Program-made: the position numbers and the translations under genes | Part shown: piece after piece, positions 51,188 to 55,323 of the stretch | Layout: every line of letters starts with the position of its first letter | Position numbering within the stretch: position 1 is the stretch's first letter | Notes under the pieces: model-generated | What the model saw: only the letters and a program-made list of their open reading frames with translations | Told to the model about the DNA's origin: nothing | The model's database searches: none | NCBI RefSeq assembly: GCF_009725985.1 | Contig: NZ_RCNR01000030.1 | Location: forward strand, 1-55,323 | Reading direction: 5' to 3' | DNA from: Zobellia amurskyensis | GTDB taxonomy: Bacteria > Bacteroidota > Bacteroidia > Flavobacteriales > Flavobacteriaceae | DNA: 55,323 bases

Positions 51188-51195
51188 TAGTTTTG
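51188..51195 (+). promoter_or_regulatory. Possible -7 element for the ebo operon
   Basis: TAGTTTTG matches TAnnTTTG, 81 bases before the eboA ATG; transcription would begin near 51199. The only upstream T-run, TTT at 51170-51172, is 15 bases away, shorter than the usual spacing, so confirmation is needed. Confidence 0.38.
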
Positions 51196-51275: not shown

Positions 51276-52133
51276 ATGGAATTAACCAAAATAGACCAAG
51301 AGCTTCAGTCTTTATTGAGCAGTAATTTAGACTCAGGAATAGATTCATGGTTGCATGAAAAATTAGAGCAAATTATTAGCTCTAGTTCTACGAAGGACCT
51401 GTATATGACATATAGTCTACTGGCTAGTAAAATAGATTCAAGCGTTATTTTGAATCTAAGTGAGGATACAGATGAGGTAACCCAATATTTAAAAACGCAA
51501 CATGCTACAACGCTTCAAGTAGCCCGAATTTATCTTTTAATAAAGGTATTAAAGGCTAACGGAGATTTCTTTGTACCCAAAGTTGCCAATCTTATTCAGG
51601 TTGCAGATACTGGGGAACTAGAAACCTTTTTAAAATACTTGGTTCTGTTGCCTAATGCCGAAAATTACAAACAAACGGCGGTAGAGGCATTACGGACCAA
51701 TATTGCTACTATTTTTGAAGCAATTAGTATGCAGAATCCGTATCCCGCAAAGTACTTTAACGACCAACAATGGAACCAAATGTTTCTTAAGGCGGCATTT
51801 ATGCAATTAGACCTTTCGACTATTTTGAGCATTGATGAGCGTGCTAATAAAGATTTAGCACGTATCATATCGGATTATGCGCATGAACGTTGGGCGGCTT
51901 CACGAGAAATTGAACCTTTGTTTTGGAGACCTGTAGCTGCATTTTTAGATGAAAATTTATTGCAGGATATGGAGCGCTTGTTTGCAAGTGACAATCCTGT
52001 TGAAAATAAAGTGGCCGCTTTATGTTGTTTAAATTCAGAAGAGCCAAAGGCGAAGGAATTATTGGCAAAGCATCCCAAGTTGAAAGCTCAAGTAGAGAAT
52101 AAAACTATTACCTGGAAAAATATAAAAGATTAG
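51276..52133 (+). CDS. eboA: EboA domain protein
   Basis: This 285-residue protein is mostly alpha-helical, without a signal peptide or membrane segment. The EboA-type patterns are visible mainly in its C-terminal half (WNQMFLKAAFMQLDLSTILSIDERANKDLARIISDYAHERWAA read in short parts, and WRPVAAFLDENLLQDMERLF). No catalytic motif is seen. In other bacteria eboA heads the eboABCDEF cluster and is a scaffold or partner of unknown activity. It starts the operon here, 2 bases before eboB. The assignment rests on the family resemblance plus the order of the four genes that follow. Confidence 0.82.
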   Translation: MELTKIDQELQSLLSSNLDSGIDSWLHEKLEQIISSSSTKDLYMTYSLLASKIDSSVILNLSEDTDEVTQYLKTQHATTLQVARIYLLIKVLKANGDFFVPKVANLIQVADTGELETFLKYLVLLPNAENYKQTAVEALRTNIATIFEAISMQNPYPAKYFNDQQWNQMFLKAAFMQLDLSTILSIDERANKDLARIISDYAHERWAASREIEPLFWRPVAAFLDENLLQDMERLFASDNPVENKVAALCCLNSEEPKAKELLAKHPKLKAQVENKTITWKNIKD

Positions 52134-52134
52134 T

Positions 52135-53043
52135 ATGGAAGATAAAATGATGATAATCGACCCGCATGTGCATATGACATCGCGAACTACGGACGATTAT
52201 GAAGCCATGGCCGCGGCCGGAGTAGTAGCTATAATAGAGCCTTCTTTTTGGTTGGGGCAACCCAGAACCCAAGTAGGTTCTTTTCAAGATTATTACAGCA
52301 GTTTGGTAGGCTGGGAACCTTTTAGGGCTAGTCAATTTGGTATTCAGCACTATTGTACCATTGGTCTAAATTCTAAAGAGGCCAATAATGAAGCATTGGC
52401 AGAGCAGGTTATTGAACTATTGCCCTTATATGTTCACAAGCAGAATGTTGTGGCTATTGGTGAAATAGGTTATGATGATCAAACGCCAGCGGAAGACAAG
52501 TATTTTCGCATGCAATTGGAAATGGCTAAGGAGTTGGGTATGGTCGTACAAGTTCATACGCCTCACCGCGATAAAAAGGCAGGTACTCTAAAAAGCATGG
52601 AGGTTTGTTTGGAGCACGGTCTAGATCCGTCACAAGTGGTCATTGATCATAATAATGAAGAAACGGTTAAGGACGTTCTTGATAGAGGTTTTATTGCTGC
52701 ATTTACTATTTACCCAAAAACAAAAATGGGTAACGAGCGTATGGTAGAGGTGGTCAAAAAATACGGAAGCAATAATATTATTGTAGATAGTTCGGCAGAC
52801 TGGGGTGTTAGTGATCCTTTAGCTGTGCCAAAAACGGCAAATCTCATGCTTAAGAGAGGTATTGCAAGAGAGGACGTTGTAAAGACATGTTATCAAAATG
52901 CTTTGGATGTTTTTGGTTCTAACGGCAAAATGAAAGAAGAGCATTGGTTAAAGCCCAATGGTATTAATCAAGCTCAGCTCTTTAATGATAACAGCGTATT
53001 AAGAGGGCAGGAGCCTAGAATAGATTCTGATCAGATTAAGTAA
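52135..53043 (+). CDS. eboB: EboB, TatD-like metal-dependent hydrolase
   Basis: This 302-residue protein has the amidohydrolase metal motif HVH (His11, His13 in IDPHVHMTSRTTDDY). Further likely ligands follow: Glu in AIGEIGYDDQTPAEDKYF, His in VQVHTPHRDKK, His in VIDHNNEETVKD and Asp in IIVDSSADWGVSD. Long identical stretches such as EPSFWLGQPRTQVGSF mark it as the Ebo type rather than TatD DNase. It should be a cytoplasmic hydrolase with two metal ions; its substrate is unknown. It shares one base with the start of eboC (TAATG, 53041-53045). Confidence 0.9.
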   Translation: MEDKMMIIDPHVHMTSRTTDDYEAMAAAGVVAIIEPSFWLGQPRTQVGSFQDYYSSLVGWEPFRASQFGIQHYCTIGLNSKEANNEALAEQVIELLPLYVHKQNVVAIGEIGYDDQTPAEDKYFRMQLEMAKELGMVVQVHTPHRDKKAGTLKSMEVCLEHGLDPSQVVIDHNNEETVKDVLDRGFIAAFTIYPKTKMGNERMVEVVKKYGSNNIIVDSSADWGVSDPLAVPKTANLMLKRGIAREDVVKTCYQNALDVFGSNGKMKEEHWLKPNGINQAQLFNDNSVLRGQEPRIDSDQIK

Positions 53044-53945
53044 TGAATCGCACATTTCTTGGTTATGCGCGATTGGCAAGGCCCGCTAATTTACCCACTG
53101 CCGCGGCCGATATTTTGGCAGGTGTGGCTATTGGGGGTGTTTTTGTAGGTGGCGTTCAAACTGATTTTATTGGTTCGGAGCGGTTTCTCAGTATTATATA
53201 CCTTGTATTTTCATCCGTGTTTCTTTATGCGGGTGGCGTAATTCTAAATGATGTATTCGACTTTAAGATAGATCAAGTAGAACGACCGGAAAGACCTATA
53301 CCTAGCGGTGTAGTTTCGTACAATTCGGCGGCGTTGTATGGCGGGATTACGTTAGTTATTGGGGTATTGTTGGCATTCTTGGTGTCGGTAACGTCTGGTA
53401 TGGTTGCCGTAGCACTGGCCCTAGCTATACTTTTGTATGATGCGGTGGCCAAAAAATATGACTTTTTTGGACCGTTAAGTATGGGGTTGTGCAGGGGCGT
53501 AAATTTGCTATTGGGGATGTCCATTTTGGGTAACTTCAATTATTGGTTTATGGCCATTATTCCCATCGTATATATCTTTGCTATCACGTTGATTAGTAGA
53601 GGGGAGGTTCATGGAAAAAACAAAAATCATATTGTCTTGGCAGGAGCTCTATATGGTACTGTAATTTTAGCTGTTGCAACTATGGCCTTTTTACATACGG
53701 ATGCTCTTTTATTTCCGTTATTGTTTTTAGTATTGTTTGCGTTCACGGTTTTTAGACCTTTGATAAAGGCACACTCCGTAAATTCACCAGAGAATATTAA
53801 AAAGGCCGTTATGGCAGGTGTCATAGCGCTAATTTTATTGGATTCGTCTATTGCCGTTGCTTTTTTTGATTGGTGGTACGGATTAATTATATTGGCATTA
53901 CTGCCTGTTTCAAAAGGCTTATCTAAAGTGTTTGCCGTTACCTAA
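53043..53945 (+). CDS. eboC: EboC, UbiA-type membrane prenyltransferase-like protein
   Basis: This 300-residue protein has about nine membrane helices. The UbiA signature is present: NDVFDFKIDQVERPERPIPSG (residues 76-96, quoted in parts) gives the first Asp-rich motif and its RP-PS tail, and YDAVAKKYDFFGPLSMGLCRGVN gives the second. UbiA enzymes attach prenyl chains to aromatic acceptors in the membrane. In Ebo clusters the acceptor is not known. Start and stop overlap or abut neighbours, so it is made together with EboB and EboD. Confidence 0.9.
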   Translation: MNRTFLGYARLARPANLPTAAADILAGVAIGGVFVGGVQTDFIGSERFLSIIYLVFSSVFLYAGGVILNDVFDFKIDQVERPERPIPSGVVSYNSAALYGGITLVIGVLLAFLVSVTSGMVAVALALAILLYDAVAKKYDFFGPLSMGLCRGVNLLLGMSILGNFNYWFMAIIPIVYIFAITLISRGEVHGKNKNHIVLAGALYGTVILAVATMAFLHTDALLFPLLFLVLFAFTVFRPLIKAHSVNSPENIKKAVMAGVIALILLDSSIAVAFFDWWYGLIILALLPVSKGLSKVFAVT

Positions 53946-53978
53946 GGTCAACTGTTATTGGCGTTCAAAAGAAAAACG

Positions 53979-55139
53979 ATGTTTAAAACGATAGAACAAA
54001 AATTTGAGGTTTCATATCAATATGGCCTCCACTTTACCGAAAATTTGTTCGGTATGGAGAATACCTTGTTCAAGGATATTATCAAAGTATATAAAAACGA
54101 GCCTGTTAAATTACTTTTTGTGATTGATGACGGTGTAGCTGCTGCTCATCCAAATCTCGTTAAGAATGTAAAAGCTTATTGCGAGCACTACCAAGAGAAT
54201 CTTGTACATATGAAAAGTATGATCGTGCAAGGCGGCGAGGTTTGTAAAAACGATGAAAGTCAAGTTGAAGCTATTCTCAAGGCGGTTAGCGAGTACGCTA
54301 TCTGCAGACATTCATTTGTTGTAGTTATTGGGGGAGGTGCGGTTATAGATATGGCCGGACACGCCGCTGCAATAGCGCATAGAGGAGTAAAGCTCATTCG
54401 TATACCAACAACTGTATTATCGCAAGATGATTCCGCCGTAGGCGTTAAAAATAGTGTGAATGCTTTTGGGAAGAAGAATTTTATAGGAACTTTTGCTCCG
54501 CCGTATGCGATTATAAACGATACGGATTTCCTTAAAACTTTGGAACAACGCGATTGGATTTCCGGTATTTCTGAAGCTCTAAAAGTAGCATTGATCAAGG
54601 ATAAGGTCTTTTTTGAGTACCTGGAGGAAAACGCATATAAATTACGAGATAGAAATATGGAAGCAATGCAGTACACGATTTACAGGTGTGCCGAAATGCA
54701 TATGCATCATATTGCTCAAGGAGGTGATCCTTTTGAAAGTGGTTCTTCTAGGCCATTGGACTTTGGTCACTGGGCCGCCCATAAATTGGAATATATGACC
54801 AACTACGCACTTCGTCATGGCGAAGCGGTAGCAAAGGGTATTGTCTTAGATGTAGCTTATGCTCATTTGGTCGGTTTAATAAATGAGACGGATTTAAACA
54901 GGGTAGTACGTGTTTTTCAGAACATTGGTTTTGATTTAAGTTTTCCATTGGCTTCGGAGAAAGAGGTAAATGAATTGCTTAATGGTATAGAGGAGTTTAG
55001 AGAGCACCTTGGTGGTGAACTTACCATAACCCTAATTTCAGATATTGGTGTAAAACATGATGTTCACGAAATTGACCGGCAGACCATGAAAAAGGCGCTG
55101 AACTTAGTAAACGAAATTTCAAAACTTAAAGTAGAGTAG
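53979..55139 (+). CDS. eboD: EboD, 3-dehydroquinate synthase-like sugar phosphate cyclase
   Basis: The ATG at 53979 gives 386 residues; a TTG 7 codons upstream (53958) is possible. The NAD-binding loop IGGGAVIDMAGH (Gly118-Asp124), the metal ligand Glu199 (SGISEALK), His264 (DFGHWAAHKLE) and His280 (LRHGEAVA) match the AroB fold. Where AroB has Asn before the Gly-His pair, this protein has Asp261 (DFGH), and the substrate-site Arg seems to be Ser257. The sequence is thus off the true DHQ synthase track, like known C7-cyclitol synthases, and I infer a different sugar phosphate substrate. It ends 1 base before eboE. Confidence 0.9.
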   Translation: MFKTIEQKFEVSYQYGLHFTENLFGMENTLFKDIIKVYKNEPVKLLFVIDDGVAAAHPNLVKNVKAYCEHYQENLVHMKSMIVQGGEVCKNDESQVEAILKAVSEYAICRHSFVVVIGGGAVIDMAGHAAAIAHRGVKLIRIPTTVLSQDDSAVGVKNSVNAFGKKNFIGTFAPPYAIINDTDFLKTLEQRDWISGISEALKVALIKDKVFFEYLEENAYKLRDRNMEAMQYTIYRCAEMHMHHIAQGGDPFESGSSRPLDFGHWAAHKLEYMTNYALRHGEAVAKGIVLDVAYAHLVGLINETDLNRVVRVFQNIGFDLSFPLASEKEVNELLNGIEEFREHLGGELTITLISDIGVKHDVHEIDRQTMKKALNLVNEISKLKVE

Positions 55140-55140
55140 C

Positions 55141-55323
55141 TTGCGCATAGATAATAATTTTCAACTTACGTATTGTACCAATATCCATCCAGGATTCGAT
55201 TGGAAGACCACTTTTGATAGTCTTAAAGAGCACGTCCCTAAGATAAAGAAAGAAGTATCATCAGGTAAGCCCTTTGGTTTGGGTTTACGATTATCCAATA
55301 AAGCAAGCGAGGAGTTAGCTTTG
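55141..55323 (+). CDS. eboE: EboE, xylose isomerase-like protein (5' part only)
   Basis: A TTG at 55141, 1 base after the eboD stop (55139), opens a frame that reaches the right edge (61 codons) with no stop. The start has no better ATG or GTG. The N-terminus LTYCTNIHPGFDWKTTF and then KPFGLGLRLSNKASEELA match EboE, a TIM-barrel protein of the sugar isomerase-like superfamily. It is truncated by the window. EboF would be expected beyond it. The close coupling supports one polycistronic operon. Confidence 0.85.
   Translation, partial: MRIDNNFQLTYCTNIHPGFDWKTTFDSLKEHVPKIKKEVSSGKPFGLGLRLSNKASEELAL

Follow-up and report, generated by a model that had tools for sequence, protein, structure and literature searches.

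The 55,323-nucleotide stretch of Zobellia amurskyensis DNA considered here (the window, at its full length) ends within an ebo operon: eboA, eboB, eboC, eboD and the start of eboE are all open and co-directional, with successive gaps of 1, -1, 33 and 1 bases. The gene names, ebo order and tight spacing of the original prediction, made from the letters of the window alone, were reproduced together with its coordinates and gaps. Since the window is the whole of contig C30 (the genome, of 5.1 Mb, is divided into 120 contigs) and ends inside eboE, the operon is cut by the assembly; the suggestion to look beyond position 55323 proved fruitful, the rest of eboE, followed by eboF, being found at the start of contig C43, where the best match of the genome search to PF01663, the EboF family, is also located (220.6 bits). 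Contig C43 opens in frame with the EboE remainder and continues with eboF and a TMEM220-family gene, whose 3' end overlaps a convergent dnaX-like gene; four frames of this contig were scanned with profiles, the remainder being known as a list of open reading frames (ORFs) alone. The two EboE pieces (61 + 336 residues) give 397 residues, the same length as EboE of Zobellia russellii, the joint being free of any lost residue, and we infer that the two contigs abut. With the halves of eboE fitting in frame, all six ebo genes are present in the order ABCDEF and in one direction; the locus is likely to represent a complete Bacteroidota-type ebo operon of Zobellia, split by an assembly break, with the TMEM220 gene as its last cistron. 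The features are as follows.

Promoter-like element TAGTTTTG: 51188..51195, + strand; form TAnnTTTG, upstream of eboA
eboA: 51276..52133, + strand; all-helical ARM/HEAT-like protein, 285 amino acids (aa)
eboB: 52135..53043, + strand; TatD-like metallohydrolase, 302 aa
eboC: 53043..53945, + strand; UbiA-superfamily prenyltransferase, 300 aa
eboD: 53979..55139, + strand; sugar phosphate cyclase-like protein, AroB paralogue, 386 aa
eboE, first 61 codons: 55141..55323, + strand; TTG start, contig end at 55323
eboE remainder, 336 aa: contig C43, L010:1-1011; NF035939 positions 56-378, 411 bits (cut-off 250)
eboF: contig C43, L010:1015-2388; 3-base gap after eboE, PF01663 match
TMEM220-family gene, 125 residues: contig C43, L010:2391-2768; 2-base gap after eboF, PF15071 match

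The ratio of non-synonymous to synonymous substitution rates (dN/dS), calculated against Z. russellii, is 0.056 for eboA, 0.011 for eboB, 0.057 for eboC, 0.043 for eboD, 0.053 for the eboE remainder, 0.025 for eboF and 0.074 for the TMEM220 gene; these values are rough, dS (0.84-1.45) being near saturation. Judged from these ratios, the seven genes are under purifying selection. A frameshift or chance ORFs at the locus can be rejected, as the frames are open, the family profiles are matched and selection is purifying. The element upstream of eboA, whose form TAnnTTTG we take to be the -7 motif of Bacteroidota, is kept in six of six aligned sequences (the window and five relatives), unlike the miaE-eboA intergenic region as a whole, which is not kept across the same six.

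TMEM220 and the ebo operon

The association of TMEM220 with ebo was analysed in a family sample of 299 genomes, some of them incomplete, in which 48 were scored as ebo-positive by an EboC match over its cut-off. The protein encoded on C43 matches PF15071 with 82 bits (cut-off 27), and this profile exceeds its cut-off in 69 of the 299 genomes, namely in 46 of the 48 ebo-positive against 23 of the 251 ebo-negative ones (Fisher p 3e-34, without correction for kinship); microbial rhodopsin PF01036, taken as an equally frequent control (70/299), is found in 11/48 and 59/251, respectively (p 1.0). A phylum sample of 345 genomes, partly shared with the family sample, gave TMEM220 in 21 of 28 ebo-positive and 22 of 317 ebo-negative genomes. 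Kinship was checked in one genus of six genomes, where the two ebo-positive genomes are the two carrying TMEM220.

The arrangement of the genes was scored in 147 ebo loci (the unnamed and named sets overlap, so that some genomes are counted twice): in 73 of them TMEM220 comes after eboF and is read in the same direction; it stands before eboA in 7, convergent to eboF in 3, before eboE in 1 and two genes away in 2; 40 loci show no TMEM220, and 21 are cut or undecided. One locus, L043, is scored here as devoid of TMEM220 although the Pfam search detects it there. The eboF-TMEM220 pair is found away from the dnaX site in L135, L149 and L155. TMEM220 thus stands next to ebo in four arrangements, in addition to its co-occurrence with ebo in the family and phylum samples. 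In L027 two TMEM220 matches, one of them partial, are found close together upstream of eboA.

It may be argued that TMEM220 is merely a neighbour by inherited synteny (miaE-TMEM220-dnaX), unrelated to ebo; a number of observations weigh against a seventh Ebo component, and some of them can be read in this way. The gene is not exclusive to ebo, as shown by the 23 ebo-negative family genomes that possess it; loci were fetched from 17 of these, and in 5 of the 17 the order miaE-TMEM220-dnaX occurs without ebo, while TMEM220 stays at the dnaX site in all three fetched ebo-positive genomes with ebo elsewhere (two further genomes, G110 and G226, with TMEM220 on another contig than ebo, are outside these three). 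Moreover, ebo-linked and unlinked copies are mixed in the TMEM220 tree; in Bacteroidota outside the family the gene is adjacent in only 3 of 20 fetched ebo loci (L092, L093, L104); and it is present in 1 of 12 cyanobacterial ebo genomes and in none of one Burkholderiales genome. Simple synteny is, however, made less likely by the seven loci with TMEM220 directly upstream of eboA, by the three with the gene after eboF outside the dnaX site, by the three convergent to eboF and the one before eboE, by the co-occurrence in the phylum sample and by the indifference to ebo of the equal-frequency control; we regard it as a real possibility whose chances lie clearly below one half. Because TMEM220 is often present with ebo and missing from 11 of 12 cyanobacterial ebo genomes, it is better described as a frequent partner within Bacteroidota, outside the universal core; it must also serve apart from ebo.

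Both Pontibacter ebo genomes and the single Hymenobacter one contain TMEM220. The sole cyanobacterial match, in Cyanothece sp. BG0011 (the genome of L186; C195:3848-4189), could belong to a contaminant contig. A longer TMEM220 type adjoins a 935-940-residue protein in 7 of the 17 ebo-negative loci (L074, L076, L079-L083); the size of this neighbour suggests UvrA.

The model of the Z. russellii TMEM220 protein consists of four helices (pLDDT 94), and a fold search with it returned no match in the PDB with E <=0.001. Invariant in 37 sequences are the motifs Q-x-N-D-P-D and E-x-x-R-E and a W; charge counts over 87 sequences place the N-terminus, the middle loop and the C-terminus inside, so that both motifs are predicted to be periplasmic, the second outer loop being partly positive too (2.2 K+R vs 5.5 D+E). 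The term TMEM does not occur in the main texts of PMC5133447, PMC6282210 and PMC6092422, figures and supplements lying outside this statement; no publication joining TMEM220, bacteria and operon was found in the library searched, and the titles among the TMEM220 matches listed concern human or pig biology, none of them bacteria or ebo.

The Ebo proteins

EboF matches the family profile PF01663 (Type I phosphodiesterase/nucleotide pyrophosphatase) with 220 bits (cut-off 23). Its active site was read against the bacterial nucleotide pyrophosphatase/phosphodiesterase (NPP) 2gsn and two PF01663-family members of the same genome, the two-metal site positions being those that we assume from NPP structures. 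Of the seven residues of this site, T, D and H are retained, while a D is replaced by V, an H by Q and a DH pair by EY; these four substitutions are shared by at least 97% of 131 EboF sequences, and the two family members of the same genome retain the usual metal residues. A third ORF, of L004 (1-1323), does not belong to the family and was excluded from this comparison. On this residue comparison EboF has lost four metal-site residues and, with them, much of the canonical zinc phosphodiesterase site. The published label of EboF, a hydrolase for a phosphate-containing substrate (PMC5133447), is therefore doubtful. The genome contains 54 PF01663 matches at E <=0.001, mostly weak and spread over many contigs; they may be sulfatases, members of the same clan, as would suit a degrader of seaweed polysaccharides.

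EboB and EboD, for which no ebo-specific profile is available, were assigned from their places in the operon and their resemblance to other ebo loci. EboD reaches 234 bits against the aroB equivalog TIGR01357, under its cut-off of 305, and a separate aroB over the cut-off (327 bits) is found on contig C57; in at least 97% of 134 EboD sequences the DKK motif of 3-dehydroquinate (DHQ) synthase reads F-x-E and LNxGHT reads LDFGHW. That EboD is the housekeeping AroB of this genome was rejected on account of its score, the true aroB on C57 and the altered motifs. The metal-ligand positions of EboD, which like those of EboB we presume from the enzyme family, are kept in at least 97% of the same sequences. 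For sugar phosphate cyclases, PMC4426668 speaks of fingerprint sites. EboB (PF01026, 68 bits, cut-off 27) is better conserved than any other Ebo protein, its identity being 64-91% with 11 relatives and 98% with its Z. russellii counterpart (L107); H11, H13, E110, H141, H172 and D222 (HxH, E, H, H, D), presumably the metal ligands of TatD-type enzymes, are kept in at least 97% of 140 sequences. EboB is also 90% identical to that of Zobellia in a Neolewinella record (L112), 88% in a Saprospiraceae metagenome-assembled genome (MAG; L129) and 77% in a Neomarinimicrobiota MAG (L155), which points to either horizontal transfer or misbinning of these records.

EboC (NCBIfam NF035940, 370 bits, cut-off 250) keeps the NDxxDxxxD motif and has gEvxG in place of the second Asp-rich motif; its nearest solved sequence is digeranylgeranylglyceryl phosphate (DGGGP) synthase (6m31), an enzyme that prenylates a polyol lipid. 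The start of EboE in the window matches NF035939 with 63 bits over profile positions 1-52, and the protein has conserved E, D-x-C-H and E motifs, a pattern that, as we read it, resembles metal-dependent sugar isomerases. EboA scores 152 bits with the EboA_domain profile NF035938 (cut-off 50) and 171 bits with the EboA_family profile NF035937, under its cut-off of 320. Its AlphaFold2 (AF2) model is an all-helical solenoid (pLDDT 95) for which the fold search gave no PDB match with E <=0.001, the ARM/HEAT-type matches being weak (best E 0.28); a PDB sequence search with EboE, EboA and TMEM220 was likewise without match. Fourteen columns of EboA are invariant in 55 sequences, including R84, E114, R140, N154, W166, N167, K172, N191, E204, R205 and R210; these residues suggest a binding pocket and not merely a scaffold.

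Neighbouring genes and the Ebo product

The ebo loci of the other 47 ebo-positive family genomes were fetched for comparison, as the original prediction had advised, and in most of them the gene order resembles that seen here: miaE lies on the opposite strand beside eboA in 35 of the 47, usually with ppk before it and with TMEM220 and dnaX after eboF. By its neighbours, the operon occupies an inherited housekeeping site. The claim that the window lacks cargo genes holds for what was scanned with Pfam, namely the eboE fragment and 38 of the 53 ORFs in the window that reach 100 aa, none of which matched polyketide synthases, non-ribosomal peptide synthetases or a tryptophan-derived pathway; scytonemin biosynthesis genes were not recognised among these 38 either, the rest of the genome not having been searched for them. 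Clustering the neighbours of 67 ebo loci revealed no recurrent biosynthetic genes: nine groups, present in 26-35 loci, all belong to the inherited block seen in the window and on C43. Next in frequency are a protein of 300 aa adjoining ppk, in 12 loci, and the DUF3291 protein of 45703, in 11; the protein of 43898 and a group of 71-aa ORFs, probably spurious, occur in 10 loci each; the largest set outside the inherited block is an insertion seen in Arenibacter (5, 4 and 3 loci). Cargo genes beside ebo were rejected on the basis of this clustering; if ebo serves a cargo here, its genes would be located elsewhere, the simpler reading being that the operon makes its own product.

Three genes (about 650, 629 and 1116-1131 aa) are inserted between eboA and eboB in L028, L113, L119, L123, L126, L131 and L148, of which six bear Arenibacter titles; at this place L127 contains the long gene alone and L050 the two others without it. 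Some neighbours of non-syntenic ebo loci are, judging from their first residues, putative sugar-oxidation proteins.

It is proposed, with a confidence that falls a little short of even, that the operon encodes a pathway complete in itself, yielding a prenylated lipid of the cyclitol type that would serve in envelope traffic. EboD would cyclise a sugar phosphate to a cyclitol, which EboE and EboB, with their metal-dependent isomerase and hydrolase folds, would modify; EboC would then attach an isoprenoid to the cyclitol at the inner membrane, EboA could act as a binding or scaffold protein, and EboF might have a function different from the usual cleavage of phosphodiesters. The lipid so formed, with its prenylated head group, would work in moving or anchoring a compound at the cell envelope, where the four-helix TMEM220, with invariant residues on its predicted periplasmic side, may act on it. 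This proposal, already published in its isoprenoid-cyclitol form (PMC5133447), is supported by the proximity of EboC to DGGGP synthase, the intact metal positions of EboB, the separation of EboD from AroB, the lack of recurrent biosynthetic neighbours and the co-occurrence of TMEM220 with ebo and its four arrangements next to it; among published results, the five single ebo deletions in Nostoc (PMC6282210) and the farnesyl transfer by EboC homologues (PMC9235831) also speak for it. Several facts are unfavourable to it: an isolated ebo product was not met in the literature examined; in vitro, EboC prenylated quinolines, no cyclitol acceptor being named in the part of PMC9235831 examined; and eboD is not recognisable (ABC-EF), the other genes being present, in L112 (Neolewinella antarctica) and in L135 (a Leeuwenhoekiella MAG), a Leeuwenhoekiella operon without eboD having already been reported (PMC5133447). 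To these must be added the affinities of EboD with DHQ synthases, which form the basis of a different explanation, in which EboD would be an additional 3-dehydroquinate synthase and the operon would do plain housekeeping in shikimate metabolism. Indeed, EboD passes NCBIfam PRK06203, named 3-dehydroquinate synthase, with 553 bits (cut-off 333), and among solved structures its nearest sequences are DHQ synthases (149 bits), ahead of the 'Cyclase' 4p53 (109 bits), which we take to be ValA, and of 2-deoxy-scyllo-inosose (DOI) synthase (95 bits); the presence of a separate aroB over its cut-off and the altered DKK and LNxGHT motifs make this explanation very improbable.

According to another hypothesis, the operon makes a farnesylated aromatic of the quinoline type, EboC coupling an aromatic acid, for example 8-hydroxyquinoline-2-carboxylic acid (8-HQA), with farnesyl diphosphate and the other enzymes preparing or finishing the compound. 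EboC homologues of Maribacter, Zobellia uliginosa and Algoriphagus do farnesylate 8-HQA in membrane assays, but the acceptors known are the offered ones alone, of which 6 of 14 were accepted, and the R145A mutant of EboC was about as active (PMC9235831); the assay may thus have missed the site of the native acceptor. Given also that recurrent biosynthetic genes are lacking near the operon and that EboD is left without a clear role, we consider the quinoline hypothesis unlikely. A similarly low probability is assigned to the idea that the Ebo proteins, without making any product themselves, assemble into a membrane-anchored complex that exports small molecules synthesised elsewhere in the cell. 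It would explain why five single deletions in Nostoc have the same effect, the scytonemin monomer staying in the cytoplasm (PMC6282210), and would suit the all-helical solenoid predicted for EboA; against it stand the metal-ligand positions preserved in EboB and EboD, the failure of the operon proteins to match any transporter family and the lack of recurring cargo beside ebo in related genomes. A broader and more novel picture is a tentative one, more likely wrong than right as a whole: Bacteroidota ebo would include TMEM220 as a seventh component acting periplasmically on the Ebo product, EboF would be a repurposed fold, and the operon would make its own prenylated cyclitol lipid and serve no cargo pathway next to it; TMEM220 proteins found elsewhere, among them the human one, might then act on a related lipid.

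Comparison with known ebo systems

The view that this locus represents an undescribed system could not be maintained: the operon ABCDEF was named in 2016 from Bacteroidetes, Cyanobacteria and eustigmatophyte plastids, occurring across several bacterial phyla and algal plastids (PMC5133447); knockouts followed in 2018, when single deletions of eboA, B, C, E and F were each reported to keep the scytonemin monomer cytoplasmic in Nostoc (PMC6282210); and EboC (Ubi-297) of Maribacter sp. MS6, Zobellia uliginosa and Algoriphagus was assayed in 2022, the homologues transferring farnesyl (PMC9235831). The Zobellia locus is a further example of a known operon. That Ebo proteins may make or move a lipid- or sugar-derived molecule, as had been suggested, agrees with the stand-alone locus, with EboB and EboD having kept their metal-ligand positions and with the preserved first Asp motif of EboC; as a proposal it was already the published guess. 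The additions of the present analysis are the completed operon, the TMEM220 link with its control, the broken EboF metal site and the distinction of EboD from the AroB of the genome. Coming from a seaweed bacterium whose genus can be cultured, and standing alone with no cargo genes found beside it, this operon offers a clean place to seek the ebo product. The recurrent membrane partner and the broken zinc site of EboF provide new starting points for the mechanism; TMEM220 is, besides, a gene family of humans, and its biochemistry is not described in the titles among the matches listed.

Compared with the ebo operon of PMC5133447, all six genes, their order and their direction are alike, and a TMEM220 gene, without mention in the main text of that paper, follows eboF here. 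The operon is the same as that of Ubi-297/EboC in Maribacter sp. MS6 and Zobellia uliginosa, the latter of the same genus; the published assay employed E. coli membranes and offered acceptors (PMC9235831). The role of ebo in bringing a small molecule to the periplasm derives from Nostoc mutants only (PMC6282210). The Ebo proteins of Nostoc punctiforme described there are homologous to those of Zobellia, whose EboB is 71-77% identical to the fetched cyanobacterial ones; in contrast, extra genes separate eboC and eboD in 11 of the 12 cyanobacterial loci showing both, the two being adjacent in Zobellia, an adjacent TMEM220 is present in none of 14 cyanobacterial loci, and no scytonemin genes accompany the Zobellia locus among the scanned window ORFs. 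The EDB cluster of Pseudomonas fluorescens NZI7, connected with a nematode phenotype, holds an ebo cluster and additional EDB genes (PMC6282210); the former is common to both organisms, the latter belong to Pseudomonas. As to the TMEM220 family (PF15071), the Zobellia protein falls well within it (82 vs 27 bits) and is, by prediction, a four-helix membrane protein.

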